Source of the DNA: Bacillota bacterium
GTDB lineage: Bacteria; Bacillota; Clostridia; Oscillospirales; Acutalibacteraceae
Length of the DNA: 35,460 bases
Assembly (NCBI GenBank): GCA_021771115.1
Contig: JAETPP010000011.1
Span: 1 to 35,460, forward strand
Direction of reading: 5' to 3'
A program made the translations under genes and the position numbers. Every line of letters begins with the position of its first letter. Position 1 is the first letter of the stretch. Under the pieces are notes generated by a model. It worked only from the letters and a program-made list of their open reading frames with translations, searched no databases and was not told the DNA's origin. Of the stretch, positions 448 to 22,358 are shown piece by piece.

Positions 448-476
448 TTGAAATCTTCTTTTCTTTGTGATAGAAT
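448..476 (+). promoter_or_regulatory. Sigma-A type promoter for the cobalamin-riboswitch transcript
   Basis: TTGAAA (448-453), a 17-nt spacer, and TAGAAT (471-476). Transcription would begin near 483, just before the first aptamer, which makes it the natural promoter for both riboswitches and the gene at 1054. Confidence 0.65.
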
Positions 477-495
477 AGGCAAAAATTTTATAGTA

Positions 496-612
496 TGTGA
501 GCATTGTTCCCGGGTTTCCGGCGGCGGAACGGGGTGAGATTCCCCACAAGCGGGTTACTGTGATGCCTTCTGCGAAAGGCTTAGTCAGATACACCGTGCC
601 AGCAATGGCTGT
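496..612 (+). promoter_or_regulatory. Cobalamin riboswitch, copy 1 of 2
   Basis: Contains the conserved blocks of the cobalamin aptamer in order: GGAACGGGGTGAGATTCCCC (533 region), GGTTACTGTGA, and AGTCAGATAC near 590, with a variable P-stem (GCCTTCTGCGAAAGGC) between the last two. It is followed within about 60 nt by a strong intrinsic terminator, so it should act by transcription termination when a corrinoid binds. The outer limits are approximate because the P1 pairing is not clear by eye. Confidence 0.85.
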
Positions 613-667: not shown

Positions 668-713
668 AAAAGCGCTCGTCCGGGGGAAAGGTGTGTCCGG
701 ACGGGCGCTTTTT
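668..713 (+). terminator. Intrinsic terminator of riboswitch 1
   Basis: The 16-bp arms at 668-683 and 697-712 pair with a single G-U wobble and run into a T tract. It sits between the two aptamers, so it can stop transcription before the second aptamer is made. Confidence 0.85.
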
Positions 714-801
714 CTGCGCCGCCGCACCGGGCGGAAAAAGGCCGGGCTTTACCGTGGGAGCTTCCTTTCGGGCGGCGCCGGCCTCACAACTGCATATCGA
801 C

Positions 802-899
802 AAAACAGCATGAGAAAGCGGAATGGGGTGAAAATCCCCGCGAGACGGTCACTGTGAAGTCCGCTCCGGCGGAATAAGTCAGATACGCTGTGCTGTTTT
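802..899 (+). promoter_or_regulatory. Cobalamin riboswitch, copy 2 of 2
   Basis: Second full aptamer: AAAGCGGAATGGGGTGAAAA, then GGTCACTGTGAAG, a variable hairpin (TCCGCTCCGGCGGA), and AAGTCAGATACGC. A 9-bp P1 closes it (AAAACAGCA at 802-810 with TGCTGTTTT at 891-899). Its core blocks align with copy 1, but the peripheral stems differ, so this is not a very recent duplication. Both copies read toward the gene at 1054. Confidence 0.88.
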
Positions 900-937
900 C
901 CGTACCCTGCCATCTCCGGGGGACTGAGAGGTTTATC

Positions 938-968
938 CGCACAGCCCAGGGGTGTTGTGCGCTTTTTT
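938..968 (+). terminator. Probable terminator of riboswitch 2
   Basis: CGCACA (938-943) pairs with TGTGCG (956-961), followed by a run of six T. It lies between aptamer 2 and the start codon at 1054, as expected for an expression platform. The stem is shorter than that of terminator 1. Confidence 0.6.
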
Positions 969-1053: not shown

Positions 1054-4000
1054 ATGAGAAAAAGAATTTTATCCCTGGCACTGGCGCTGGCCATGGTGCT
1101 CAGCCTGCTGCCGGCCGGCTCTTTGACAGCCTGGGCCGCGGACACGGAGCCTGCCGAGATCTCCACGGCGGACGATCTGAAGCAGCTGGAAACTGCCGCC
1201 GCGGGCAGCAGCTTTATTCTGGCGGCGGATATTACGCTGCCGGAGGACTGGTCTCCGGTAGCGGCAGGTTATATTGACGGCCTTGTGCTGGACGGAGGCG
1301 GCCACACCATCACGCTGAACGGCGCGCCTTTATTTGGAAATATGGGCAGCAGTACGGTCACCAACCTGGTTCTAAGCGGCCAGGTCACCGGTGACAGCGG
1401 GGATATTGCCTCTTTGGCGGCCATCAGCAGAGGAACTGTCCGCAACTGCGTTTCCTACGCCGATGTGACCTACACCGGCGCCGCCGGCGAAGGCTATGCC
1501 CCAAGATTTGCGGCAGGGCTGATCGCGCAGTTTTCAGGCGCCGGTACCCTGGATAACTGCGTCTATGCCGGCACACTGTCTCACGGAAACGCGGAAGCCT
1601 ATGGCTCTCTGGCAAATACGGCCTTCTTTGTAAGCGCCGTGATAAAAAACTGCGTGGGCGTTGGTTCCGCACGGATCGGCTCGGCGGAGGGAATGTCTGC
1701 TCCCACGGAAATTGAAAAAGGAACAAACACCCTGGTGATAAGCGCCGCCGACTTTGACCCTTCCGCATACGTAGCCCAGCTAAACTCCAACCGCGACGCC
1801 GCCGCCGGTGATCTGGAGTGGGAAGTAAAGGACGGCCGCCTCTCCCTGAAGCGGGGAGCGGAAGCCCCGGAGGCCACGGCAGAGGAAATTGCCGCCCTGC
1901 AAACCGCTGTCGGGCAGCCTGTTGACGGCGGAAAAATCTACACGGCGGACAGCTGGGCGGCCTATCACGAGGCGCTGAGCAAGGCGCAGAACATTCTGGC
2001 GCAGGAAGGCGCCAAGCAGAGCACGGTCGTAAACGCCACCAATACCCTGAATGCAGCTTACAGCGGTCTGACGGAGCGTTCCCTGTCCGCAGTGAATCTG
2101 GCGGGACAGGAGGTGGTTTCCGTCACATCGGCAAGCCAGCTGGAAAGTCTAACCGCGGGAAAGTACTACCGTCTGGACGCGGATCTTGAGATCACGGGCA
2201 TGTGGTTTGGAACGTTTGAAACCATGAACGCCGTTTTAGACGGCAATGGCCACACGATCACGCTGAATACTTCCAATCACAGCCATTTGTGGTCCGCCCT
2301 GGGCCCCGATGCTGTCGTTCAAAACCTGGGCGTTCTGGGGAGCGTATCGTATTCCACCTCCTCCGGCTCTCTTGCGAATTCCAGCCAGGGCCTGATCGTC
2401 AACTGCTGGTCTCGGGCAGATGTGAGCCCCGGCGGAAATGTGAGCGCCGGCGGCTTTGTGGGCACGCTGAAGTCCGGTGGAGCTATCGTCAACAGCTATG
2501 TGGGCGGCAGCGTGACAAGCAGCGGCAGCCCGGGAGTGTTGGCGGGAAACACCGAGGGAAACAGCCTGCTCTCCTTCTGCTACGGTCTGACAGAGAATTT
2601 TAAGGGCGCCGGAGAGGGCGCTGTCAGGGACTGCCAGGTCAAAACACGGAAGGATTTCTACAGCTCAGAGTTTCTCGCCCTGCTCAACCAAAACCGGGGC
2701 GCCTGCGGCAAGGAATGGACCCTCTCCTCGGAAGGCTATCCCCATCTTGGCCCGGCGGAAAGCTACACTCCGCCGGAAGCAAAGGAGATTACTTTTACCT
2801 ATCTGGACGGCGGCACGGTCACCTTTAAAAGCGACGAAGGGCTGACCGTCAGCCTGCAGGATGTTTCCGGGTACGCGGTGGGCAGGTTCTCCATGGAGGG
2901 CGCGGCCCGCTGGCAGGACACCATCGCCGGCAACAAAGATGTGCTTCTGGTCAACGAAAACGGCACGCTGAACATCTATCAGCCCGGCAGCGCGGATGTG
3001 GTGGCCATCAGCTCGGAAGCAGACGGCTCCAAAGAGCTGGTGCGCTTTACCGTCACCGTGGTGGAGGGAGGCGCAGTCGACGGCTTCCGCCTGACCCTGG
3101 AGGGACAGGCGGTAGGGGATTCCCTGACGCTGCAGGGCAGCGAGCAGGTCACCCTGCTTCCCGAGATCCTGCGAGGCACGGTTTGGAGCTCTATTTCTCC
3201 CTCTCAGGTGCAGTTTTCCCACACCGGCGCTCTGCACCGGGTAAACGGCACCTTCTATGCAGAGGAGCCGGGGGAAATGACGCTGAGCGCCGGCTATATG
3301 GATAAAACGGTCACCGTCAAGATCATTTCCGCCTTTGTCCCGGTAACAAAGATCTCCCCAGCCCCCAGCGGCGTTTACAAGATCCACCAGCACAATCCCA
3401 ACAGTGAAAATTTGGGGAATTTTCTGGATCTCACCCTATCCCACGGCGCAGGCGACGTGGTGGTGGAGCCGGAAAACGCCAGTTACCGCGACCGGTGGAC
3501 CATGCATTCCAGCGATCCCACCGTGGCGGAGTATATCCCCAGCATGATCCGGGCGGTGCTGCCCTATCAGGCGGGAACCACCACCCTGACCGCCGTAGTG
3601 GAGGCTGACGGCCAGCAGCCCCGGGTTACGGGAAGCAGCAGCATCACCATCGAGTACGAAAACCCTGTGGCTTCTGTCAGCGTTTCTCCCGACGCCCTTA
3701 CTGTCAGGGAAAACGAAAGCCTTTCTCTGCCCATCACCTTTACGGGGAAAAGCTCGGGCGATGTTACCGAACCGGCCATGGACTGGGCCTTTTCCACCAC
3801 CGACGGCGGCCAGGTGGAGATCGTTCGCGACGGAGCGCTGGGCCTCTGGGAAGAGGACGGCCAGGGAAATAAGCCCTGTATAGCAAACCCCAAATATAAA
3901 ATAAACGGCGTGACGGCCGGTACGGTCACTGTTACAGGCACGCCCCGGGATCAGACCGGCGGCGCTCAGGCCGTCACCTTTACCGTCACGGTGGAGACCG

Positions 4001-6300
4001 GCACACCCCTGGAGCCTGCCGATAACGCCGCCCTGACCGCGGCGGGCATCGCCAACGGCCGGACATATCTCACCTCCGCTGCCACAGAGTACCGCTACGG
4101 CAGCGAGTGGGAGATCTTCAGCCTGCGCCGCTCCGGGCAGACCATTGCCCAGGAGAAGCTGGACGGATATCTGGACTCGGTGGAAAGCACCTATAAAAGC
4201 AGCCCGGACGCTGCCGCCATGAAGCCCACCACCATTGCCCGTGTGGCGCTGACTTTAGGGGCGCTGGGGCAAAACGCGGCTAACTTCCGGGAACTGAATT
4301 TTATCGAAATGCTCTACAACAGCGCCAGAATCCAGGAAGGCGGCAACGAGCTCATGTGGGCCCTGATCGCCCTGGACAGCCGGGAGTACGCCGTACCGGC
4401 CGGCGCACAGTGGACGCGGGACAAGCTGATCACCCAACTGATCACGACCTATCAAAGCTCTGAGGGCGGCTTCGGACTCAACGACAACCGTACCCTCAGC
4501 GTGGATATGACCGCCATGGCCATTCAGGCCCTGGCTCCCTACTACGATTCCCGGCAGGAGGTAAAAGCGGCTGTGGACAAGGCTCTTTCCTACCTCAAGG
4601 GACAAATGAGCTCCGGCTGCGGCTTCAACGATAACGCCGAATCCACCGCTCAGGTGGTGATCGCCCTTGCGGCGCTGGGGCTGGATCCGGTGGACAGCGC
4701 AAACGGCTTTGTCCGCAACGCTGCGGTGAACCTGCTGACCAATCTCACCGGCTTTGCGCACACCGACGGCGGCTACAAGCACTATTCCACCGACCAAGGC
4801 GCGCAGCCCATGAGCACCACCCAGGCTTTACTGGCCTTTGAAGCGTATCGCAGATTCTCCGCCGGGGAAAATGCCCTGTACGATCTGACCGACGCGGCGG
4901 ATACCCGCTCTGTGCTGGCCCAGCGCCTTGCCGAGGCGAGCGCGCTGCAGGCGTCCGATTACACGGCGGAAACCTGGGCTGTTCTGCAAAAGGCCGTAGA
5001 AGAGGCCCAGGCCGTTTTGGAGGACGAAGCTTCCGAGGAAGCGGCGCTGAAAGCGGCTGATACCGCCCTGGCCGCCGCTCTGGCCGGTCTGAAGAGCGCC
5101 TCCTCCGGCGGCAATACCCCCGTCATGCCCCAGAACACCATCACGGTCAAATTCCGCCTGATCGGCGATACCCTGCACAACAGCGCTTCCGGGCACAACG
5201 GCTATGTCAACTGGATCCGCACCATGTCTGTGACCGTTCCGGAGGACGCCACGGTGTACGACGCCTTTGCGAAGGCTCTCAGCCAAAAAGGCCTGCGGTT
5301 TGAAGAAAGCCTCAGCGGCTACATCGGCGGTATCCAGGCCCCGGCGGCTTTGGGCGGCTACTGGCTGCGGGAGTTTGATAACGGGCCCACAAGCGGCTGG
5401 AAATATATGGTCAACGGCAGCTATCCCGATGTGGGGCTGCGGTATTACCGGCTGCAAAACGGCGATTCCGTGATCTGGCGTTATGTGGACGACTACACCG
5501 ACCCGGCGGACAATTCCACCAAGTGGCAGGAAGCGGCGGATGTAGATCCCTCCGGCACGGGCACGGCGGGAGCCGTGGAGGAGGTCATCGCCCTGATCGA
5601 CGGGATCGGCACGGTCACAGCGGACAGCGGCGGTGCGATCTCCGCCGCCCGCAAGTCCTATGACCTGCTCAGCAGGGAGCAGAAAAAGCAGGTTACAAAC
5701 TACGCTTTGCTCACTGCGGCGGAGGCGGCCTATGCCAAGCTGACGGGAAAGCTTCCCTTTGTGGATGTGGCGGACGGCGTGTGGTACCGCAGCGCGGTGC
5801 AGTATGTCTACGAGGAACAGCTTTTCAGCGGCACCTCCGGCACGACCTTCTCTCCCCATGAAAAGATGAGCCGTTCTATGATCGCCGCGGTGCTTCACCG
5901 TCTGGCAGGCAAGCCATCGGTTTTCGGCGACAGCGGCTTTGTGGACGTGGGCACAGATACCTGGTATACCGACGCGGTGATCTGGGCCGGCAAAAACGAT
6001 ATCGTCAGCGGTTACGGCAACGGACGGTTCGGCCCCTCCGATCCCGTCACCCGGGAACAGCTGGCGGCCATACTCTACCGCTACGCCAAGCTCATGGGAT
6101 ACGATACCGGCGCCGCCAAGGATCTTTCCGGCTATACCGACGCCTCCAACATCAGCGGCTGGGCAAGGGAAGCCATGAGTTGGGCAACTGCAAACGGGCT
6201 GATCGTCGGCCGCACCTCCACCACCCTGACCCCCCGCGGCACCGCCACCCGCGCCGAAGCAGCCGCCATTCTCATGCGCTTTGCCGCATTGGAGAAATAG
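1054..6300 (+). CDS. Giant SLH-anchored surface protein with transcobalamin/intrinsic-factor-like core (alpha-barrel + DUF4430)
   Basis: 1,748 residues. The start is the ATG at 1054 with AAAGGA upstream. Residues 1-28 form a Sec signal peptide (MRKRILSLALALAM..., AWA-AD cleavage). In order follow: beta-helix/GLUG-like repeats at about 78-199 and 396-496 (LDGGGHTITLN, LDGNGHTITLN), a FIVAR-like helical module at about 278-344, bacterial Ig-like domains at about 579-986, and an all-helical prenyltransferase/squalene-oxidase-like barrel at about 993-1269 (EGGFGLNDNRTLSVDMTAMA, CGFNDNAESTAQVVIALAAL). Then come a second helical module at about 1285-1349, a DUF4430 (transcobalamin C-terminal-like) domain at about 1360-1486 (TSGWKYMVNGSYPDVGL, GDSVIWRYV), and three SLH repeats at about 1566-1746 that bind wall polymers. 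Barrel plus DUF4430 is the domain pair of intrinsic factor and transcobalamin. Control by two cobalamin riboswitches makes extracellular corrinoid capture the best inference. No B12 transporter genes are visible nearby. Confidence 0.85.
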   Translation: MRKRILSLALALAMVLSLLPAGSLTAWAADTEPAEISTADDLKQLETAAAGSSFILAADITLPEDWSPVAAGYIDGLVLDGGGHTITLNGAPLFGNMGSSTVTNLVLSGQVTGDSGDIASLAAISRGTVRNCVSYADVTYTGAAGEGYAPRFAAGLIAQFSGAGTLDNCVYAGTLSHGNAEAYGSLANTAFFVSAVIKNCVGVGSARIGSAEGMSAPTEIEKGTNTLVISAADFDPSAYVAQLNSNRDAAAGDLEWEVKDGRLSLKRGAEAPEATAEEIAALQTAVGQPVDGGKIYTADSWAAYHEALSKAQNILAQEGAKQSTVVNATNTLNAAYSGLTERSLSAVNLAGQEVVSVTSASQLESLTAGKYYRLDADLEITGMWFGTFETMNAVLDGNGHTITLNTSNHSHLWSALGPDAVVQNLGVLGSVSYSTSSGSLANSSQGLIVNCWSRADVSPGGNVSAGGFVGTLKSGGAIVNSYVGGSVTSSGSPGVLAGNTEGNSLLSFCYGLTENFKGAGEGAVRDCQVKTRKDFYSSEFLALLNQNRGACGKEWTLSSEGYPHLGPAESYTPPEAKEITFTYLDGGTVTFKSDEGLTVSLQDVSGYAVGRFSMEGAARWQDTIAGNKDVLLVNENGTLNIYQPGSADVVAISSEADGSKELVRFTVTVVEGGAVDGFRLTLEGQAVGDSLTLQGSEQVTLLPEILRGTVWSSISPSQVQFSHTGALHRVNGTFYAEEPGEMTLSAGYMDKTVTVKIISAFVPVTKISPAPSGVYKIHQHNPNSENLGNFLDLTLSHGAGDVVVEPENASYRDRWTMHSSDPTVAEYIPSMIRAVLPYQAGTTTLTAVVEADGQQPRVTGSSSITIEYENPVASVSVSPDALTVRENESLSLPITFTGKSSGDVTEPAMDWAFSTTDGGQVEIVRDGALGLWEEDGQGNKPCIANPKYKINGVTAGTVTVTGTPRDQTGGAQAVTFTVTVETGTPLEPADNAALTAAGIANGRTYLTSAATEYRYGSEWEIFSLRRSGQTIAQEKLDGYLDSVESTYKSSPDAAAMKPTTIARVALTLGALGQNAANFRELNFIEMLYNSARIQEGGNELMWALIALDSREYAVPAGAQWTRDKLITQLITTYQSSEGGFGLNDNRTLSVDMTAMAIQALAPYYDSRQEVKAAVDKALSYLKGQMSSGCGFNDNAESTAQVVIALAALGLDPVDSANGFVRNAAVNLLTNLTGFAHTDGGYKHYSTDQGAQPMSTTQALLAFEAYRRFSAGENALYDLTDAADTRSVLAQRLAEASALQASDYTAETWAVLQKAVEEAQAVLEDEASEEAALKAADTALAAALAGLKSASSGGNTPVMPQNTITVKFRLIGDTLHNSASGHNGYVNWIRTMSVTVPEDATVYDAFAKALSQKGLRFEESLSGYIGGIQAPAALGGYWLREFDNGPTSGWKYMVNGSYPDVGLRYYRLQNGDSVIWRYVDDYTDPADNSTKWQEAADVDPSGTGTAGAVEEVIALIDGIGTVTADSGGAISAARKSYDLLSREQKKQVTNYALLTAAEAAYAKLTGKLPFVDVADGVWYRSAVQYVYEEQLFSGTSGTTFSPHEKMSRSMIAAVLHRLAGKPSVFGDSGFVDVGTDTWYTDAVIWAGKNDIVSGYGNGRFGPSDPVTREQLAAILYRYAKLMGYDTGAAKDLSGYTDASNISGWAREAMSWATANGLIVGRTSTTLTPRGTATRAEAAAILMRFAALEK

Positions 6301-6493: not shown

Positions 6494-6570
6494 GGGGGCA
6501 TAGCTCAGCTGGTTAGAGCGCCTGCTTCACACGTAGGAGGTCACAGGTTCGAGTCCTGTTGTCCCCACCA
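6494..6570 (+). tRNA. tRNA-Val (anticodon CAC), CCA encoded
   Basis: A 77-nt cloverleaf. Acceptor GGGGGCA pairs with TGTCCCC (one G-U). D-stem GCTC/GAGC. Anticodon arm CCTGC-TTCACAC-GTAGG reads CAC, which decodes GUG valine. T-arm ACAGG-TTCGAGT-CCTGT. Discriminator A, then CCA encoded in the DNA. The 3' end TTGTCCCCACCA reappears twice downstream (6714-6725 and 7799-7810), which suggests the gene is or was an integration target. Confidence 0.97.
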
Positions 6571-6758: not shown

Positions 6759-6764
6759 CAACGA

Positions 6765-6935
6765 AATAAATCCCTGACGGGATTTGTGAAATGCCCTGCG
6801 GGCGTGAAATATGGCTTCGCCATGTGAAATGCCTGGGGGCGTGGGTGGATTTATTTCATTTCACTTTCCGCATAAGCGGAAAATTTCACAAAGGCCCCAG
6901 GCCTTTCCTTCACGTTGCGAAGCAACACTTCACGC
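6765..6935. repeat. Chain of hairpins separated by constant GTGAAAT / ATTTCAC spacers
   Basis: Left half: hairpin AAATCCCTGACGGGATTT (6768-6785), GTGAAAT, hairpin GCCCTGCGGGC, GTGAAAT, hairpin ATGGCTTCGCCAT, GTGAAAT (6824-6830). Right half uses the reverse complement spacer: ATTTCAC (6858-6864), hairpin TTTCCGCATAAGCGGAAA, ATTTCAC (6883-6889), hairpin around GGCCCCAGGCC, CTTCAC, hairpin GTTGCGAAGCAAC, CTTCAC. The whole is thus a mirror-symmetric array of different stems with one constant linker. No gene is evident inside. The stretch 6571-6972 holds only this and the module before it. Confidence 0.8.
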
Positions 6936-13177: not shown

Positions 13178-13987
13178 TTATTTCGTCAGCTCATAAAACG
13201 CCACGGCGCTGGCGGCGGCTACATTTAAGGAATCCACCCCATGGGACATGGGGATGCGCACGGTGTAGTCGCAGTGGGAAATGGTACTGGGCGCAAGGCC
13301 GTCTCCCTCGGTGCCCAGGACAATGGCCAGCTTCTTTTCCGCCGCCAGCCGGGGATCCTCAATGCTCAGGGAATCCTCCTTTAAGGCCATGGCCGCCGTT
13401 TTGAAGCCCAGCTCTTTCAGCAGCTCCTGCCATGAGCCATCCTCCGGCAGATAGGTCCAGGGCACCTGGAATACCGTTCCCATGCTCACCCGGGCGGCCC
13501 GGCGGTACAGGGGGTCGCTGCCCGCGGCGGTCAGCAGTACGGCATCGATATTCAGGGCGGCGGCAGAGCGGAAAATGGCCCCGATGTTGGTTGGGTTCAT
13601 CACGTTTTCCAGCACGGCGATCCGCCGGGCCTTTTCACAGATCGCGGCAGCGGAGGGCAGCTTGGGCCTGCGCATGGCACAAAGCATTCCCCGGGTCAGG
13701 TGAAAGCCGGTAAGCTGGGAGATCACATCACGTTCCGCCACAAACACAGGGATCTCCCCGCAGCGCAGCAGCAGCTCCTTCCCTTTTCCCTCCGCGTGCT
13801 TTTTCTCCATTAAGAAAGAAACGGGAACACAGCCGCCGTCCAGCGCCCTGCCGATGACCAGCGGGCTTTCCGCCACAAACAGCGCGTTTTCCGGGTCCGC
13901 TCGGTTCAGCAGCTGGTTTTCCGTAAGCCGGGCATAAATATCCAGCTCCGGCGCGCCGAAATCTGTAATTTCCACGATCCTTGCCAT
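13178..13987 (-). CDS. TrmH/SpoU-family RNA 2'-O-methyltransferase
   Basis: 269 residues. The start ATG follows AAAGGAGGGGGTTACC, a near-ideal site. Residues 1-110 are the substrate-binding N-terminal part (L7Ae-like, with FVAESPLVIGRAL). The C-terminal half is the knotted SPOUT methyltransferase: motif 1 NPTNIGAIFRS (131-141), motif 2 LGTEGDGLAPS, and motif 3 IPMSHGVDSLNVAAASAVAFY near the C-terminus, which form the S-adenosylmethionine pocket. Such proteins methylate ribose in rRNA or tRNA; the target nucleotide cannot be assigned. It is a single gene, facing a repeat-filled intergenic region downstream and divergent from the ATPase gene at 14297. Confidence 0.9.
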   Translation of the reverse strand: MARIVEITDFGAPELDIYARLTENQLLNRADPENALFVAESPLVIGRALDGGCVPVSFLMEKKHAEGKGKELLLRCGEIPVFVAERDVISQLTGFHLTRGMLCAMRRPKLPSAAAICEKARRIAVLENVMNPTNIGAIFRSAAALNIDAVLLTAAGSDPLYRRAARVSMGTVFQVPWTYLPEDGSWQELLKELGFKTAAMALKEDSLSIEDPRLAAEKKLAIVLGTEGDGLAPSTISHCDYTVRIPMSHGVDSLNVAAASAVAFYELTK

Positions 13988-16063: not shown

Positions 16064-17062
16064 TTATTTCCCGGCAAAGTGGCAGGCCACATAATGGCCG
16101 GGAGAAACCTGCTTCAGCTCGGGGGCGTCCTTGCGGCAGCACTCCTGGGCCCTGGGGCAGCGGCTCTGGAATTTGCATCCGGGCGGTACATCGATGGGGC
16201 TGGTGACCTCGCCCTCCAGCATGATGCGCTGGCGGCTGTCCTCGATATCCGGGTCCGCAATGGGAATGGCGGACATCAGCGCCTCTGTATAGGGGTGCAG
16301 GGGGTTGCTGTAGATCTCAGAGGAGGTGGCAAGCTCCACCACAGAGCCCAGATACATGACGGCCACCCGGTCGGAAATATGCTTTACCATGGCCAGGTCA
16401 TGGGCGATAAACATATAGGTAAGGCCCAGCTCCTGCTGGAACCGGATCAGCAGGTTTGCGACCTGCGCCTGAATGGACACATCCAGAGCGGACAGGGGCT
16501 CGTCGCACAGGATGAATTTCGGCTCTACCGCCAGGGCTCTGGCAATGCCGATCCTCTGCCGCTGGCCGCCGGAAAACTCATGGATAAAGCGGTTGGCGTG
16601 CTCCTGGTTCAGGCCCACCATGCGAAGCAGCTGGCCGATGCGCTCCTGGCGCTCCGCCTTCCCGGTGTACAGGCCGTGTACATCCATGCCCTCGCCGATG
16701 ATCTCAGCAACGGTCATGCGGGGGTTCAGAGAGGCATAGGGATCCTGGAAAATGATCTGCACTTCCTTGGTAAAGGCTTTTTTCTCCGCGCCCTTTAATT
16801 CATGGATATTCTTGCCGTTATACAGCACCGTGCCGCCGGTGGGATCGTACATGCCCACACAGGTACGGCCGCAGGTGGTTTTGCCGCAGCCGGATTCCCC
16901 CACCACGCCCAGGGTCTCGCCGGGCATGATATGGAAGGAAACATCGTCTACCGCCTTCAGGGTGCGCTTATTGCCCACCTTGAAATATTTTTTCAAATGA
17001 GAGACCTCCAGAAGCGGCTGCGTGCCAGCCGCGGCGGCAGTCTTTTCCACTTCATTACTCAT
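16064..17062 (-). CDS. oppF: Oligopeptide ABC transporter, second ATP-binding subunit (OppF/DppF type)
   Basis: 332 residues. Walker A GESGCGKT (55-62), Q-loop FQDPYASLNP, signature FSGGQRQRIGIARA, Walker B FILCDEPLSALD and switch IAHDL are all intact. The C-terminal oligopeptide-transporter extension is present with its cysteine cluster (GCKFQSRCPRAQECC, then VACHF), which in related proteins can hold an iron-sulfur cluster. The start overlaps the end of oppD by 8 nt, with AAAGGAGGAGAGG inside oppD, so translation is likely coupled. It pairs with OppD to power peptide import through OppBC. Confidence 0.92.
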   Translation of the reverse strand: MSNEVEKTAAAAGTQPLLEVSHLKKYFKVGNKRTLKAVDDVSFHIMPGETLGVVGESGCGKTTCGRTCVGMYDPTGGTVLYNGKNIHELKGAEKKAFTKEVQIIFQDPYASLNPRMTVAEIIGEGMDVHGLYTGKAERQERIGQLLRMVGLNQEHANRFIHEFSGGQRQRIGIARALAVEPKFILCDEPLSALDVSIQAQVANLLIRFQQELGLTYMFIAHDLAMVKHISDRVAVMYLGSVVELATSSEIYSNPLHPYTEALMSAIPIADPDIEDSRQRIMLEGEVTSPIDVPPGCKFQSRCPRAQECCRKDAPELKQVSPGHYVACHFAGK

Positions 17063-18209
17063 GGCCCTCTCCTCCTTTCACCCGCAGAGCCTCGGCCTTT
17101 TCCCGAACCTCCGCCGGAGCGTCGTCCGCATAGAGCCAGCACATGGCGCTGTGCCCGTGGTTTTCAGGGCCCTCGCCGGGGAATTCCTTCACCGGAGGCA
17201 TTTCCGTGAGACAGACATTCATGCACAGCTCACACCGCCGGGCAAAGGGGCAGCCCTTGGGAGGCGCCACCAGATCCGGGGGAGTGCCGCGAATGGTGCG
17301 GAGCATCTGCTTGTTCTCCCAGTCCAGCCGGGGAACTGCGCCCAGCAGCGCCCAGGTGTAGGGGTGCTGAGGGTGATAGAAAATCTCTTTTCTGCTGCCG
17401 CGCTCCACGATCTGGCCGGCGTACATCACCACGATCTTATCCGCAAAGCCGGCCACCACGCCGAAGTCATGGGTGATCAAAATGATGGAGGTGCCGTCCT
17501 CGTCCCGCAGGCGCTTCAAAAGCTCCATGATCTGGGCCTGAATGGTCACATCCAGCGCGGTGGTGGGCTCATCGGCAATGACCAGCTTGGGCTGGCAGGC
17601 CACCGCCATGGCGATCATGGCGCGCTGGCGCATACCGCCGGAAAACTCAAAGGGGTACTGCTTAAAGCGGGTCTCGGCGTTGGGGATGCCCACCACATCC
17701 AGCAGACGGATGGCCTCCTCCTTCGCCTCTTTTTTGCTCATTTTGCTGTGAATGCGCAGGTTTTCCATGATCTGCTTGCCCACCCGCATAGTGGGGTCCA
17801 GGGCCACCAGGGCGTCCTGAAAGATCATGCCGCAGTCTCCGCCGCGATACTGGGAAAGCTCCTTCTTGGACATGGAAAGGACATCCTTGCCCTCAAAGAG
17901 GATCTGGCTTCCCTCCTTGATCACGCCGGGGTGGCGGATCAGGGACATGATGGAGCGGGCGGTCACGCTTTTTCCGCAGCCAGATTCCCCGATCACGGCC
18001 AAAATTTCGCCGTGCTTCACATCAAAATTGACGCCGCGGACCGACTGTACCTCGCCTGCGTAGGTATTGTAGGAAACCCGCAGATCCTTGACCTCCAGCA
18101 AAGGCTGATTGGGGTCTCCCGTCCATTTATGGGGATTGGCTTTCCAGTTTTTCCCGATCTCCCCGGCCTCTTCTTCCACGCCGGGAGCCATTACTTTTTC
18201 TTCTGCCAT
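17055..18209 (-). CDS. oppD: Oligopeptide ABC transporter, first ATP-binding subunit (OppD/DppD type)
   Basis: 384 residues from the ATG at 18209, chosen because TTGAGGAGGGAAACTACG precedes it. The TTG further upstream would itself form part of that ribosome site. Walker A GESGCGKS (74-81), FQDALVALDPTMRVG, signature FSGGMRQRAMIAMA, Walker B LVIADEPTTALD and LITHDFGVV are present, with the family's cysteine-bearing C-terminal extension (GCPFARRCELCMNVC). About 36 residues precede the usual start of the ABC domain, an acidic, glycine-containing extension of unknown role. It lies 14 nt after oppC. Confidence 0.92.
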   Translation of the reverse strand: MAEEKVMAPGVEEEAGEIGKNWKANPHKWTGDPNQPLLEVKDLRVSYNTYAGEVQSVRGVNFDVKHGEILAVIGESGCGKSVTARSIMSLIRHPGVIKEGSQILFEGKDVLSMSKKELSQYRGGDCGMIFQDALVALDPTMRVGKQIMENLRIHSKMSKKEAKEEAIRLLDVVGIPNAETRFKQYPFEFSGGMRQRAMIAMAVACQPKLVIADEPTTALDVTIQAQIMELLKRLRDEDGTSIILITHDFGVVAGFADKIVVMYAGQIVERGSRKEIFYHPQHPYTWALLGAVPRLDWENKQMLRTIRGTPPDLVAPPKGCPFARRCELCMNVCLTEMPPVKEFPGEGPENHGHSAMCWLYADDAPAEVREKAEALRVKGGEGHE

Positions 18210-18223
18210 CGTAGTTTCCCTCC

Positions 18224-19159
18224 TCAATTACGCAGCTGCGGGTCAAGCGCGTCGCGGAGAGCATCGCCCACCACGTTGAACGAAAGCACCAGCAGGCTCA
18301 ACAGCACACAGGGGACAAGAAGCTGGAAGGGGTAGAAATTCATGGTGCTCTGCCCCTGCTGCAGCATGGTACCCAGGCTGAAGTTCGGGGGCATCAGGCC
18401 GATGCCCAGGAAAGAAAGGCTGGTTTCAGAGAAGATCACGCTGGGGATCGCCTGGGCCAGCTCCAGGATCAGGAGACCCAGAGTGTTGGGCAGCAGGTGC
18501 TTCAAAATGCGGTGCATATTGGAGCCGCCCATGGCCTTGGAGGCCAGCACATATTCGCTTTCCCGCAGCTTCAAAATCTGGCCGCGCACCAAACGGGCGG
18601 TGCCGGTCCAGGAGGTGATACTCAGGGCAAACAACAGCTGGACATAGCCGTTTCCGAACACCACCAGCAGCAAGGTACACAAAATCAAGTTGGGAATACT
18701 GCTGATGACCTCCACGATACGCATCATCACATCGTCGACAATGCCGCCCAGCGTGGCCATGATGGAGCCGTACAGGCAGCCGACGATCAGCTGGATCCCG
18801 GCGGCCACAACGGCGATGATCAGAGAGGTCCTCAGGCCCACCCAGGAGCGGGTAAACAGGTCGCGGCCCATATTGTCCGTGCCCAGCCAATACTGAGAGC
18901 AGGGCCCAAGGTTTTTATCCTGGCCGTTGATGGTGATGTAATCCTTCCCGGTAATCACAGGCCCCAAAAGGGACATGACTACCAGCAGCAGCAGAATAAT
19001 CAGGAAAAACATAGCCACTTTGTTCTGCTTAAACCGCCGGACCGCATCGGCCCAGAAGCCAATATTTTTCCGGGTGATCTCATCCGCGTACAGGGTGTCC
19101 TGGTCTACAAACGCGAACCGCTCCTCCGGCCTTTTCGTTGTGATAGTATCTGTGCTCAT
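18224..19159 (-). CDS. oppC: Oligopeptide ABC transporter permease (OppC/DppC type)
   Basis: 311 residues. There is an OppC-type N-terminal cytoplasmic segment, the first membrane helix near 48-68 (VAMFFLIILLLLVVMSLLG), and a short periplasmic part ending in HxLGTDNMGRDLFTR-like YWLGTDNMGRDLFTRSWVG, a hallmark of OppC. The BPD_transp_1 domain follows with about five helices and the EAA-like loop YVLASKAMGGSNMHRILKHL. It forms the import channel with OppB. The start follows AAAGGGGGGAAAAGC, 13 nt after the oppB stop. Confidence 0.92.
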   Translation of the reverse strand: MSTDTITTKRPEERFAFVDQDTLYADEITRKNIGFWADAVRRFKQNKVAMFFLIILLLLVVMSLLGPVITGKDYITINGQDKNLGPCSQYWLGTDNMGRDLFTRSWVGLRTSLIIAVVAAGIQLIVGCLYGSIMATLGGIVDDVMMRIVEVISSIPNLILCTLLLVVFGNGYVQLLFALSITSWTGTARLVRGQILKLRESEYVLASKAMGGSNMHRILKHLLPNTLGLLILELAQAIPSVIFSETSLSFLGIGLMPPNFSLGTMLQQGQSTMNFYPFQLLVPCVLLSLLVLSFNVVGDALRDALDPQLRN

Positions 19160-19172
19160 GCTTTTCCCCCCT

Positions 19173-20132
19173 TTACTTCTCGACCAGCTTGATCCGCGGG
19201 TCTACAATGCCGTAAAGCACATCGGAAACAAAAATGGATACGATGGTAATGGCACTGTAAAATACCGTGAAGCCCAAAACCATCGGAACGTCACGCTGGG
19301 TGATGCATTCCACGTAATAGCTGCCGATCCCGGGAACGGAGAATACGCGCTCGATAAACAGAGAGCCGGACAGCACGCCGGCAATGGTGCCGGGCAGGAA
19401 GGTGACGATGGGAATAAAGGAGTTTCTCACCACATGGTGGATCATCACCTGGGTCTCGGACATGCCGATAGCCCTGGCCGTGGTGGTGCATTCCTGATAG
19501 ATGGAGTCCAGCATGGCGATCTTCGTGGTACGGGCATAGCCCGCCACATAGAACAGGGCCCCCGCGAAGGTGGGCAATATGGTAAACTGCCAGCCCCCGA
19601 ACCACAGATCCTTTCCCTTGGGCCAGCCGATAATGGGCAGATGCAGAAGCCCATCAGGCCCGGTCAGCGTCAGCTGCAGGATCAGCGCGATAACAAGAGA
19701 CGGCACTGAGGTCATGAACATACAGAAAATAAGGATAATGAAGTCCGGCGCTTTTGCTCGCTTCATGGCGGCGATGATTCCCAGGATCAGCCCCAGGGTA
19801 ACGCCTACGATCATCTGCTGGATATTCAGGCGGATCGTGGGAGGCAGCCGCTTCTCCAGGATCGAGCCCAGGGTGTCTCCGGATTTGGCGATAGACTCGC
19901 CGAAGTCACCCTTTGTCACCACATTTTTCAGGGTAAGCAAATACCGCTCTCCCGCGGGTTTATCATACCCGTATTTCTGCATAATGCGCTCCTGCGCCTG
20001 GGCAGGCAGCTTGTGGATCTTCATAGTCAGGGCGTTGCCGGGAATGGACGCCAGCAGAAAGAATGTGGCGGTAAATACCAAAAACAGCGTAATGATCATG
20101 TAGACAAAACGCTTCGCGACAAATTTCGCCAT
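19173..20132 (-). CDS. oppB: Oligopeptide ABC transporter permease (OppB/DppB type)
   Basis: 319 residues from the ATG at 20132, which follows AAGGAGGTGGGGTC. The first helix FVYMIITLFLVFTATFFLL and the OppB N-terminal motif PGNALT are present. GDFGESI and the LPPTIRLNIQQMIVG entry into the permease domain follow, then the EAA-like loop ECTTTARAIGMSETQVMIHHV and the C-terminal GSLFIERVFSVPGIGSYYV. It pairs with OppC in the membrane. The gap to oppA is 258 nt and contains a terminator and a possible second promoter, so the permease/ATPase genes may be made at lower or independently set levels than the binding protein. Confidence 0.92.
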   Translation of the reverse strand: MAKFVAKRFVYMIITLFLVFTATFFLLASIPGNALTMKIHKLPAQAQERIMQKYGYDKPAGERYLLTLKNVVTKGDFGESIAKSGDTLGSILEKRLPPTIRLNIQQMIVGVTLGLILGIIAAMKRAKAPDFIILIFCMFMTSVPSLVIALILQLTLTGPDGLLHLPIIGWPKGKDLWFGGWQFTILPTFAGALFYVAGYARTTKIAMLDSIYQECTTTARAIGMSETQVMIHHVVRNSFIPIVTFLPGTIAGVLSGSLFIERVFSVPGIGSYYVECITQRDVPMVLGFTVFYSAITIVSIFVSDVLYGIVDPRIKLVEK

Positions 20133-20181
20133 GACCCCACCTCCTTCAATCAATTCAAATTCTAAGATGGATATCTATACT

Positions 20182-20210
20182 AGGATATCATGAACTTCCG
20201 TATTTTGCAA
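20182..20210 (-). promoter_or_regulatory. Possible internal promoter for oppBCDF
   Basis: On the minus strand: TTGCAA (20210-20205), a 17-nt spacer, and TATCCT (20187-20182), about 50 nt upstream of the oppB start codon. Confidence 0.4.
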
Positions 20211-20281
20211 CATCTTTCCCCCTGAAAATAGGTGAAAAATGAATTTTTCAATGTAAAATCCTGCACTGAAAAAGAAAGAAG

Positions 20282-20310
20282 GTGCGGACAGCTCCTTCGG
20301 CCGTCCGCAC
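20282..20310 (-). terminator. Terminator downstream of oppA
   Basis: GTGCGGAC/GTCCGCAC arms (20303-20310 and 20282-20289), followed on the minus strand by CTTCTTTCTTTTT. It probably attenuates transcription between oppA and oppB. Confidence 0.75.
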
Positions 20311-20390
20311 GCTTCCCAAACCGGGGGCTTGGGCATTTCTGTAAAGACCCAAACGCCCTTTTATTTTATTTTACGGGTTTCCCGCTCTGC

Positions 20391-22169
20391 TTATTCCTCA
20401 GCGGCGAGATATACACCCTTGGGCTCCCAGTTGGAGCCGATGGTGGCGATACCCAGGCCGCGTACATTGTTCTGGCGGAACTGCCACACATCCTGAATGA
20501 ACAGGGGGGATACTGCCATATCGTCGGCCAGCTTCTGCTCCATCTGCTTGTAGAGCTCGAAGCGGGCGTTATCATCGGTAGCGGCATAAGCGTCGCGCAC
20601 CATCTTGTCATAGTCGGCATCAGAGTACTTGCCGTGGTTGGAGCCGTTGCCGGTCTCGAACATATCCAGGTAGGTCATGGGATCGTTGTAGTCGGGGGAC
20701 CAGCCGGTCTCCACGAAATCCCACTCGTTGCCTTCCATGTCGTTCAGGAAGGTGCCCCAGTCAGCGGAAACCTTCACTTCCATCTTCACACCCAGGTTGG
20801 TCTCCAGAGCCTGCTGAACAAACTCGATAACCTGTGCGTCGGTGGAGCTTTCGTTCATGGTCAGGTAGGTCAGGGTATACTGGCTCAGATCGCTGGAATC
20901 CTTGCCCAGCTCCTCCAGGCCTTCCTTGAACAGAGCCTGCAGCTTTTCGGGGTTGTTGCCGTACTCTTCGCGGCCGGCTCTCCAGGGCTCAACATTAGCC
21001 ATTTCGCGATAGTTGCCCTCGCCCATAGCCACAGGGCCGGGTACCAGCACCTCAGCGGGAGTGTAGCGGCCCATGATGGTATCGCAATAAGCCACATTGT
21101 CTATGGAATAGGCAATGGCCTTGCGGATCTTGACGTTGGAGGTGAGCTCGCGCTCGGAGTTAAAGAGGAAATAGAAAACGCTCATGGTGGAATCAGCGTT
21201 TACCATCTGGCACTCGCCGGCGGCAGCCTTATCCTTGTACTTCTGCAGATATTCGCTGCTGGCGCCCTTGAAAGCCAGCTGGCCGGCTTCGAACAGCTGG
21301 TCAGAGGTGGCCTGCTCGGCAACATAGGTCATATCGATGGTGGTGATAAATACGTTCTCGGCATCCCAGTAAGCCTCGTTCTTCTCGAACACGGCATGGT
21401 CCTTATCGCTCCACTCGGTAACGGTGTAGGGACCGCAGTAAACCAGAGACTGCCAGTTGTTGGTGTTGCCGTACTCGCCGCCGGCAGCCTCAACAATGTC
21501 CTTGCGCTTGGGGAAGAAAATGGAGTTCGCCAGCTTGCTCAGGAAGGTGGAATCGGGAGTAGCCAGAGTGTACTCAACGGTCTTCTCATCGATGGCCTTT
21601 ACGCCAACGGTGGAGAAATCGGTGGTCTTACCGGCGTTAAAGTCGGCAGCGCCTACGATACCGGTGAGGAAGAAGGAATAGGGAGCGGCCGCAGCGGGAT
21701 CCAGCGCGCACTGAGCGCCGTATACGTAGTCGTCGGCGGTAACGGGCTGACCGTCGCTCCAGTTGTAGTCGATCATCTTCATGGTGTAAACCAGGCCGTC
21801 GTCGGAAATGGTGTAGTCCGCGCAGGCAGCCTTGTTCATCATGGCGGTGCCGGCATCGTCAAAGCTGTAACGGAACCAGCCCTCCTGGGTCATGTTCACA
21901 ACCGTGCCGGAAGGAGCATCCTGTACCTGGGTGCTATCGAAGGTAGCAGCCAGCTCCTGGCTGACATAGATGGTCTGATCCTCAGCCATCTTCTCCTCGC
22001 CGGTGCCGGTATCGCTGACAGCAGCGGAGGAAGCGGGAGTGGAAGAATTCTCATTCCCACCGGTGGACGAAGGACTGCTGCTGTTTGTGTTGTCGCCGCA
22101 GCCGGACATAACCAGCGTGAGCATCAGAACAGCAGCCAACGTCAGAGACAAAATACGCTTCATGTTCAT
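20391..22169 (-). CDS. oppA: Oligopeptide-binding lipoprotein (OppA, SBP_bac_5)
   Basis: 592 residues. The start chosen is the ATG at 22169; an ATG nine bases upstream abuts its own AAAGGAG and is too close. It has a lipoprotein signal peptide ending LVMSGC (Cys lipid anchor), then a Ser/Thr/Gly linker rich in N and S, typical of a surface tether. The family-5 extracellular solute-binding domain follows, with VTADDYVYGAQCALDP, CGPYTVTEWSDKDHAVFEKN, VKIRKAIAYSID, and WDFVETGWSPDYNDPMTYLD, the usual peptide-binder landmarks. Expressed from a near-consensus promoter at 22387-22359 with a leader of about 180 nt. It delivers peptides to OppBCDF. Confidence 0.93.
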   Translation of the reverse strand: MNMKRILSLTLAAVLMLTLVMSGCGDNTNSSSPSSTGGNENSSTPASSAAVSDTGTGEEKMAEDQTIYVSQELAATFDSTQVQDAPSGTVVNMTQEGWFRYSFDDAGTAMMNKAACADYTISDDGLVYTMKMIDYNWSDGQPVTADDYVYGAQCALDPAAAAPYSFFLTGIVGAADFNAGKTTDFSTVGVKAIDEKTVEYTLATPDSTFLSKLANSIFFPKRKDIVEAAGGEYGNTNNWQSLVYCGPYTVTEWSDKDHAVFEKNEAYWDAENVFITTIDMTYVAEQATSDQLFEAGQLAFKGASSEYLQKYKDKAAAGECQMVNADSTMSVFYFLFNSERELTSNVKIRKAIAYSIDNVAYCDTIMGRYTPAEVLVPGPVAMGEGNYREMANVEPWRAGREEYGNNPEKLQALFKEGLEELGKDSSDLSQYTLTYLTMNESSTDAQVIEFVQQALETNLGVKMEVKVSADWGTFLNDMEGNEWDFVETGWSPDYNDPMTYLDMFETGNGSNHGKYSDADYDKMVRDAYAATDDNARFELYKQMEQKLADDMAVSPLFIQDVWQFRQNNVRGLGIATIGSNWEPKGVYLAAEE

Positions 22170-22358
22170 GTTCTGCATCTCCTTTTGAAAATTTGGGACT
22201 TTACCTCAGTTTTTTGATAAGCAAAACCGTACCCATCGGGAAGCCCCAACGGATACGCCATTGTACCAAAAAGCTTTTACAAGCCGGAACAACCCGAAGC
22301 CGTGCAGGCGATCCGCCCAGCTCCTGCAATTTTTGCTGCGCCGTCTTGCTTTTGCTCA

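Follow-up and report, generated by a model that had tools for sequence, protein, structure and literature searches.

A secreted, SLH-anchored transcobalamin-like protein behind tandem cobalamin-type aptamers in an Acutalibacteraceae bacterium

Why would a Gram-positive bacterium carry on its wall a protein laid out like the vitamin B12 carriers of animals? The question is raised by a gene of a gut-type Bacillota bacterium of the family Acutalibacteraceae (assembly GCA_021771115.1, contig JAETPP010000011.1), of which we analyzed positions 1-35,460 of the forward strand, hereafter the window. The gene (1054..6300, forward strand) was delimited by Pfam and by reading of the sequence, and it encodes a secreted, transcobalamin-like protein of 1748 residues with S-layer homology (SLH) repeats as an anchor. 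It seems likely to us that this protein is an SLH-held corrinoid trap, made at low cobalamin, that feeds an importer of the energy-coupling factor (ECF) type. Our computations establish the domain content of the protein, its kinship of fold with the animal carriers, the linkage of its relatives to riboswitches and the presence of an importer cassette in the same genome.

The open reading frame extends from a GTG at 952 to a stop codon that closes at 6300, and the ATG at 1054 starts a predicted signal peptide (residues 1-28, 1054..1137; read by eye, with no program). All features of the protein and its leader lie on the forward strand. Pfam reports two stretches of FIVAR (PF07554) in the protein, and the N-terminal module occupies residues 296-339 (1939..2070). 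An alpha/alpha toroid at residues ~991-1270 (4024..4863), seen in an AlphaFold2 model and in Foldseek and VIA matches, is nearly invisible to Pfam, which gives it a sub-threshold Prenyltrans match of 11.4 bits. It is followed by a FIVAR-like module at residues ~1288-1346 (4915..5091), helical in the model and matched by PF07554 with E 0.00061 and 20.8 bits, short of the cut-off of 29.2, and then by a beta-grasp domain, DUF4430, at residues ~1362-1478 (5137..5487; PF14478, 43.8 bits against a cut-off of 23.8), which the strand order of the model also supports. Three SLH repeats close the protein (residues ~1568-1745, 5755..6288; PF00395, three stretches, 101.6 bits; S-layer protein Sap, 6bt4, E 2.1e-8). 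Together with the export signal, itself recognized by eye, these C-terminal repeats give the protein the features of an SLH-anchored surface protein. An earlier, sequence-only reading of this DNA had placed a helical barrel at residues 993-1269, DUF4430 at 1360-1486 and three SLH repeats as a wall anchor, all in close agreement with what we find; the FIVAR-like module between the two domains was absent from its description.

The part of the protein from toroid to DUF4430 was modeled with AlphaFold2 from an alignment of 88 related stretches, and the result has a mean predicted local distance difference test score (pLDDT) of 90.3 and a predicted template modeling score (pTM) of 0.69. Toroid, helical FIVAR-like module and beta-grasp domain follow one another in that order. 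Within DUF4430 the model shows two strands, a helix (432-442) and strands at 447-449, 455-459, 468-470, 479-484 and 503-509, an arrangement that corresponds, by secondary structure rather than coordinates, to a five-stranded core with a beta-hairpin after the helix. When the model was compared by Foldseek with 350,542 PDB chains, every one of the best 14 matches was to transcobalamin, haptocorrin or intrinsic factor (E 4.8e-10 to 8.4e-7); the next-best class was the terpene cyclases (E 8.2e-5). Of the 50 structural matches shown, those to the animal B12 carriers alone span both domains of the fragment. When 12 DUF4430 domains were combined into a profile, its six top PDB matches likewise were transcobalamin and intrinsic factor, at modest E values of 0.015-0.27, and the VIA lists confirm the matches domain by domain only. 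Kinship of fold with intrinsic factor and transcobalamin is thereby supported for both domains, and the order, alpha then beta, is that of the animal carriers, as had been proposed from the sequence. Intrinsic factor, transcobalamin and haptocorrin (PF01122 with PF14478) resemble the window protein in placing an alpha-toroid before a beta-grasp domain, with both folds matched; the window protein differs from them in its interdomain FIVAR-like module and its wall anchor.

A contaminant origin of the window contig was considered and ruled out by comparison of TruB. The window's TruB is 60-85% identical to those of all 24 other members of the genus searched and 40-50% identical to those of 13 of 15 genomes outside it, the remaining two having no match.

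If the protein collects a corrinoid for an importer, where is that importer? The sequence-only reading had supposed a separate one, and a likely candidate is encoded in the same genome, which holds five DUF4430 domains over four genes. Contig C337 carries, in order, a riboswitch (13257-13510), an SLH-toroid protein, a DUF4430 protein in which a single membrane stretch at the N terminus was recognized by eye, a CbiQ-like T component (PF02361) and an ABC-ABC-EcfS fusion, that is, two ATPases joined to an ECF S component matching PF07155 and PF12822. We infer that this ECF cassette carries B12. According to the accessible text on ECF-CbrT of Lactobacillus delbrueckii, that system is an ECF-type importer of cobalamin and cobinamide, and CbrT is an S component whose ECF module also serves other S components (PMC5997447); the S component of C337 is instead fused to its two ATPases and lies beside genes for a toroid and DUF4430. 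Other DUF4430 genes of this genome may be recorded here. One SLH protein, of 3046 residues, combines a single toroid with two DUF4430 domains; its gene has its own riboswitch and is divergent from the C337 ECF cassette (L009, 3338-12478). Contig C295 (L011, 8499-9499) bears a riboswitch, a gene for a DUF4430 protein that looks by eye like a lipoprotein, and a gene for a membrane protein of 168 residues that Pfam does not match. Throughout the genus, short DUF4430 genes are repeatedly found downstream of a riboswitch.

Genomic context is the strongest evidence for a role in B12 metabolism. In 60 genomes searched we found 65 DUF4430 matches and 50 matches to the cobalamin riboswitch RF00174. DUF4430 lies on the same strand within 1 kb downstream of RF00174 in 34 of the 65 cases and within 10 kb in 41, and 39 of the 50 riboswitches have a DUF4430 within 10 kb downstream. 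The association is tightest among the 28 other members of the genus, where 20 of 22 DUF4430 matches are no more than 1 kb downstream of a riboswitch and just two genomes have more than one riboswitch match; the tie of the protein to B12 that had been proposed from the window alone is in this way supported by its relatives. DUF4430 is also present in 21 of 23 genus genomes that lack CbiD and in two of five that have it (28 genomes, G000-G027, this one included and G028 left out; Fisher p 0.027, shared ancestry being ignored).

Extending the survey to loci chosen for their toroids gives a similar picture. The 79 loci named here are the best of at least 548, picked by toroid similarity, and are not a random sample; CbiQ and EcfS were called in them by similarity to the C337 proteins. 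DUF4430 occurs in 73 of the 79, CbiQ in 55, EcfS in 54 and all three in 50, and when only the 44 loci no shorter than 20 kb are considered, the three genes taken singly occur in 41, 37 and 37. For the riboswitches, 40 sequences were fetched and 29 of them, from relatives, went into a covariance model; two had been missed in extraction and nine were left out, mostly for long inserts, this genome's three among them. The model matches 61 of the 79 loci at E<=1e-3, and 62 of 78 matches have a toroid or DUF4430 frame no more than 1.5 kb behind them, figures to be read with the knowledge that some training members come from genomes later searched and match by construction. Thirteen proteins, the window's included, end in toroid-DUF4430-SLH, and for nine of them CbiQ is in the same locus. 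The counterpart in Pseudoflavonifractor phocaeensis (L043), with a toroid 57% identical, is divergent from an ECF cassette and has its own riboswitch, and in L063, L069 and L077 the toroid-DUF4430-SLH gene stands directly 5' of the cassette; no riboswitch was found in L069. At the nearest relative (L042, 76%), the sequence starts just ahead of the gene, and neither riboswitch nor importer is seen.

Two unusual loci turned up in the same survey. Calidifontibacillus oryziterrae (L088, 5186-11380) encodes a 2065-residue SLH protein with two toroids and ten DUF4430-like domains, nine of which (15-18 bits each) form a regular row. In L072 (1285-4911), three cobalamin riboswitches are spaced ~1 kb apart; the first and second precede DUF4430 frames of 144 residues whose match positions coincide, and the third precedes a 460-residue frame.

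What, then, stands in front of the window gene itself? A sigma-70-like promoter (TTGAAA-17 nt-TAGAAT, 448..476) agrees with the consensus at 10 of 12 positions, and is a consensus match only; four promoter-like sites occur in 300-1100, where 0.4 would be expected. It is followed by a first short cobalamin-type aptamer (500..610, core ~521-602), a terminator-like hairpin with a 17-pair stem and a T run (668..712), a second short aptamer with a 10-pair outer stem (798..902) and a second terminator-like hairpin of eight pairs followed by CTTTTTT (938..968). The best match of the covariance model in the window is the second aptamer (815-891, 24.3 bits, E 2.9e-5), and the next best is the first (521-602, 17.4 bits, E 0.002); its third match (14.8 bits, E 0.01), inside the nusA gene, is probably false. 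The two aptamer sites are a 76-nucleotide direct repeat, 72% identical, and both copies contain, in order, a GGTGAnAnTCC loop, ACTGTGA and the B12 box AGTCAGA, a pattern that was written post hoc and is found in none of 100 shuffles. The first hairpin folds at -30.1 kcal/mol (z -5.33, none of 200 shuffles as good), and the terminator scan finds its inner part; the second was found by the terminator scan, and the stretch 898-960 folds no better than shuffles (z 0.46). Terminator-like sites in the leader number two against 1.9 by chance, and because the count equals chance, the case for terminators rests on their position. Two OFF switches in series are the likely meaning of the two aptamers and their hairpins. 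The exact short aptamer pattern occurs in none of the 160 loci fetched; other short matches to the riboswitch model (<=110 nucleotides) were found in L049, L070, L110 and L113.

The sequence-only reading allowed that relatives of this protein might already have been described, and they have been. Burroughs, Balaji, Iyer and Aravind (2007), in the accessible text of their study of the SLBB superfamily, described a transcobalamin-like clade with bacterial members, including secreted Gram-positive fusions of the transcobalamin-type beta-grasp domain with an alpha/alpha toroid and others with FIVAR (PMC1796856). As given there, the bacterial genes are generally in operons with CbiO/CbiQ-type genes; scavenging of B12 was predicted for the Gram-positive proteins, the hosts of which usually lack key B12 biosynthesis genes; and the animal B12 carriers were proposed to derive from Gram-positive bacteria by transfer (PMC1796856). 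The window protein shares with these proteins its secretion, a DUF4430 domain with a hairpin after the helix, and the fusion to a toroid. It is a member of the kind predicted in 2007, and the idea is not new. It stands out by its SLH anchor, by attenuators in tandem and by the position of the gene away from importer genes. The main text of the 2007 paper (PMC1796856) does not contain the words SLH, S-layer or riboswitch, and unlike the operons it describes, the window gene lies away from any importer gene, behind two aptamers; CbiQ-type genes do accompany the C337 paralogue and nine of the 13 toroid-DUF4430-SLH proteins. In the literature searched, outside of which most subscription journals lie, we found no experimental test of the bacterial transcobalamin-like family.

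On the reading we prefer, for which we infer binding, the identity of the ligand, its affinity, its handover and the direction of regulation, low intracellular cobalamin would allow transcription to pass the terminators behind the two riboswitches, and the protein would be made. The SLH repeats would hold the secreted trap in the wall, where the toroid and DUF4430 would bind a corrinoid of the vitamin B12 type at the cell surface. The corrinoid would then be handed on, probably by way of the membrane-anchored DUF4430 protein, and received by the ECF-type importer of C337, with its CbiQ-like T component, two ATPases and S component.

A number of results weigh against such a role. Superposed jointly on the animal carriers, the window model gives a root-mean-square deviation of 24-26 Angstrom; therefore, the two domains match the carriers one at a time. 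In the model of a homologue with a short linker, L054 (pLDDT 96.4, pTM 0.91), the closed carrier form was sought and not found (22-23 Angstrom), and the model predicts its non-closed arrangement with confidence, though without ligand. Because both models were made without ligand, an apo state is possible, and the non-closed models may represent it. The superposition on intrinsic factor that the sequence-only reading suggested upholds each domain but does not reproduce the closed barrel/beta clasp in either model; made without ligand, the models bear on its refuting condition, an interface unable to hold a corrinoid, without deciding it, and its extracellular B12 trap feeding an importer keeps the support of context and fold. 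No direct sequence link from the toroid to the animal carriers was found: PF01122 (Cobalamin_bind) has no match to the window protein at E<=1, which leaves its toroid, unlike theirs, without a clear match to that family, and it matches two of the 88 family members, at best with E 0.06. By sequence the toroid is closest to squalene-hopene cyclases. Of the aptamers, the second matches the Rfam family AdoCbl (RF01482, 792-937) at 28.3 bits, under the gathering cut-off of 50, and the first has no Rfam match; when each is folded by itself, the first gains nothing in stability over its shuffles (z 0.17, 107 of 200 equal it), and the second, which forms its outer stem, gains only a little (z -1.65, 13 of 200 equal it). 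The two cobalamin riboswitches first noted ahead of the gene are present as cobalamin-type aptamers, one below the Rfam cut-off and the other missed by Rfam. No CbiQ or ECF gene was seen in a Pfam scan of 30 other open reading frames, out of 76 of at least 100 residues in the window. Elsewhere, 24 of the 65 DUF4430 matches, the window's included, have no RF00174 within 10 kb upstream; the association of the two per genome is weak (35 with both, 11 with DUF4430 only, six with the riboswitch only, eight with neither; p 0.046); the toroid-DUF4430 query matches none of the 28 other genus genomes at E<=0.001; and 18 of the 79 toroid loci, the nearest relative among them, have no riboswitch match. 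CbiD, CbiG and a tetrapyrrole methylase lie on a 3.4-kb contig of this assembly, which has 5.56% contamination, and a need for scavenging is on that account not proven.

Alternatively, the protein could be an adhesin for some other ligand, such as a peptide or a glycan of the cell wall or the host, with the B12 riboswitches serving regulation only. We consider this unlikely, given that Foldseek places the animal B12 carriers above all other chains over the whole fragment and that, at most of the loci we examined, the domain pair occurs together with CbiQ/ECF genes and cobalamin riboswitches. Less probable still is a system that imports cobalt or another B12-linked compound and not whole corrinoids. 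CbiQ-like T components owe their name to cobalt transport, and cobalamin riboswitches can, by the accessible account, also precede metal uptake genes (PMC2667541), but the C337 importer has an S component matching two ECF families, and the only structures shown that match both domains of the fragment are B12 carriers.

The resemblance of the toroid to cyclases extends to structure: by VIA, the toroid alone has a Z of 22.3 with squalene-hopene cyclase and of 19.3 with the alpha domain of intrinsic factor. The cyclases carry the motif DxDD. HMMER pairs the cyclase DVDDTA with the D-x-D-x-T-A of the toroid family, in which D1151, aligned with the second Asp of DxDD, is present in all 54 toroid rows; the window protein reads SVDMTAM. 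We reject as highly improbable that the toroid works as a squalene-hopene or terpene cyclase: the protein reads as secreted, the last Asp of the motif is kept in one of the 54 rows and replaced in 53, and the toroid is fused or linked to DUF4430 and ECF genes.

Returning to the corrinoid trap, we offer one further speculation, more tentatively. Because the toroid (with SLH repeats) and DUF4430 (in the membrane) are separately anchored in the cassette, the halves of the animal carriers might act here as separately tethered modules, a wall toroid and a membrane DUF4430 closing on one corrinoid as a relay from the wall to the ECF importer. The window's protein and other such fusions would then be outer collection posts, and the single-chain animal carriers would be a later fusion of a two-protein clasp.

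Other features of the window may be noted briefly. Behind the gene lie a tRNA-Val (6494-6570) and a Gut-1 RNA (RF01706, 76.1 bits; 6759-6835, forward strand), with a second Gut-1 match on the reverse strand (6853-6935) at 24.8 bits, below the cut-off of 50. Further sub-threshold Rfam matches in the window include CsrC and Plastid-ycf2. A complete-looking oligopeptide/nickel-type ABC importer occupies 16064-22178 on the reverse strand and comprises two ATPases with oligo_HPY, two permeases and a family 5 solute-binding protein; scans with Rfam and with our covariance model saw no cobalamin riboswitch at it.

In Bacteroides, the surface proteins with which gut bacteria bind B12 are under active study. 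BtuG and BtuH are, in the accessible descriptions, Bacteroidetes B12 binders tied to uptake, and BtuG complexes with the outer-membrane BtuB (PMC8941943, PMC10404256); compared by description only, they resemble the protein proposed here as B12 binders of gut bacteria. If binding by the window protein is real, it would account for the collection of B12 at the wall by many Gram-positive bacteria, and ECF importers of B12 would gain an outer binder. The proposal of 2007 that intrinsic factor came from Gram-positive bacteria would, in the same event, become testable at the bench.
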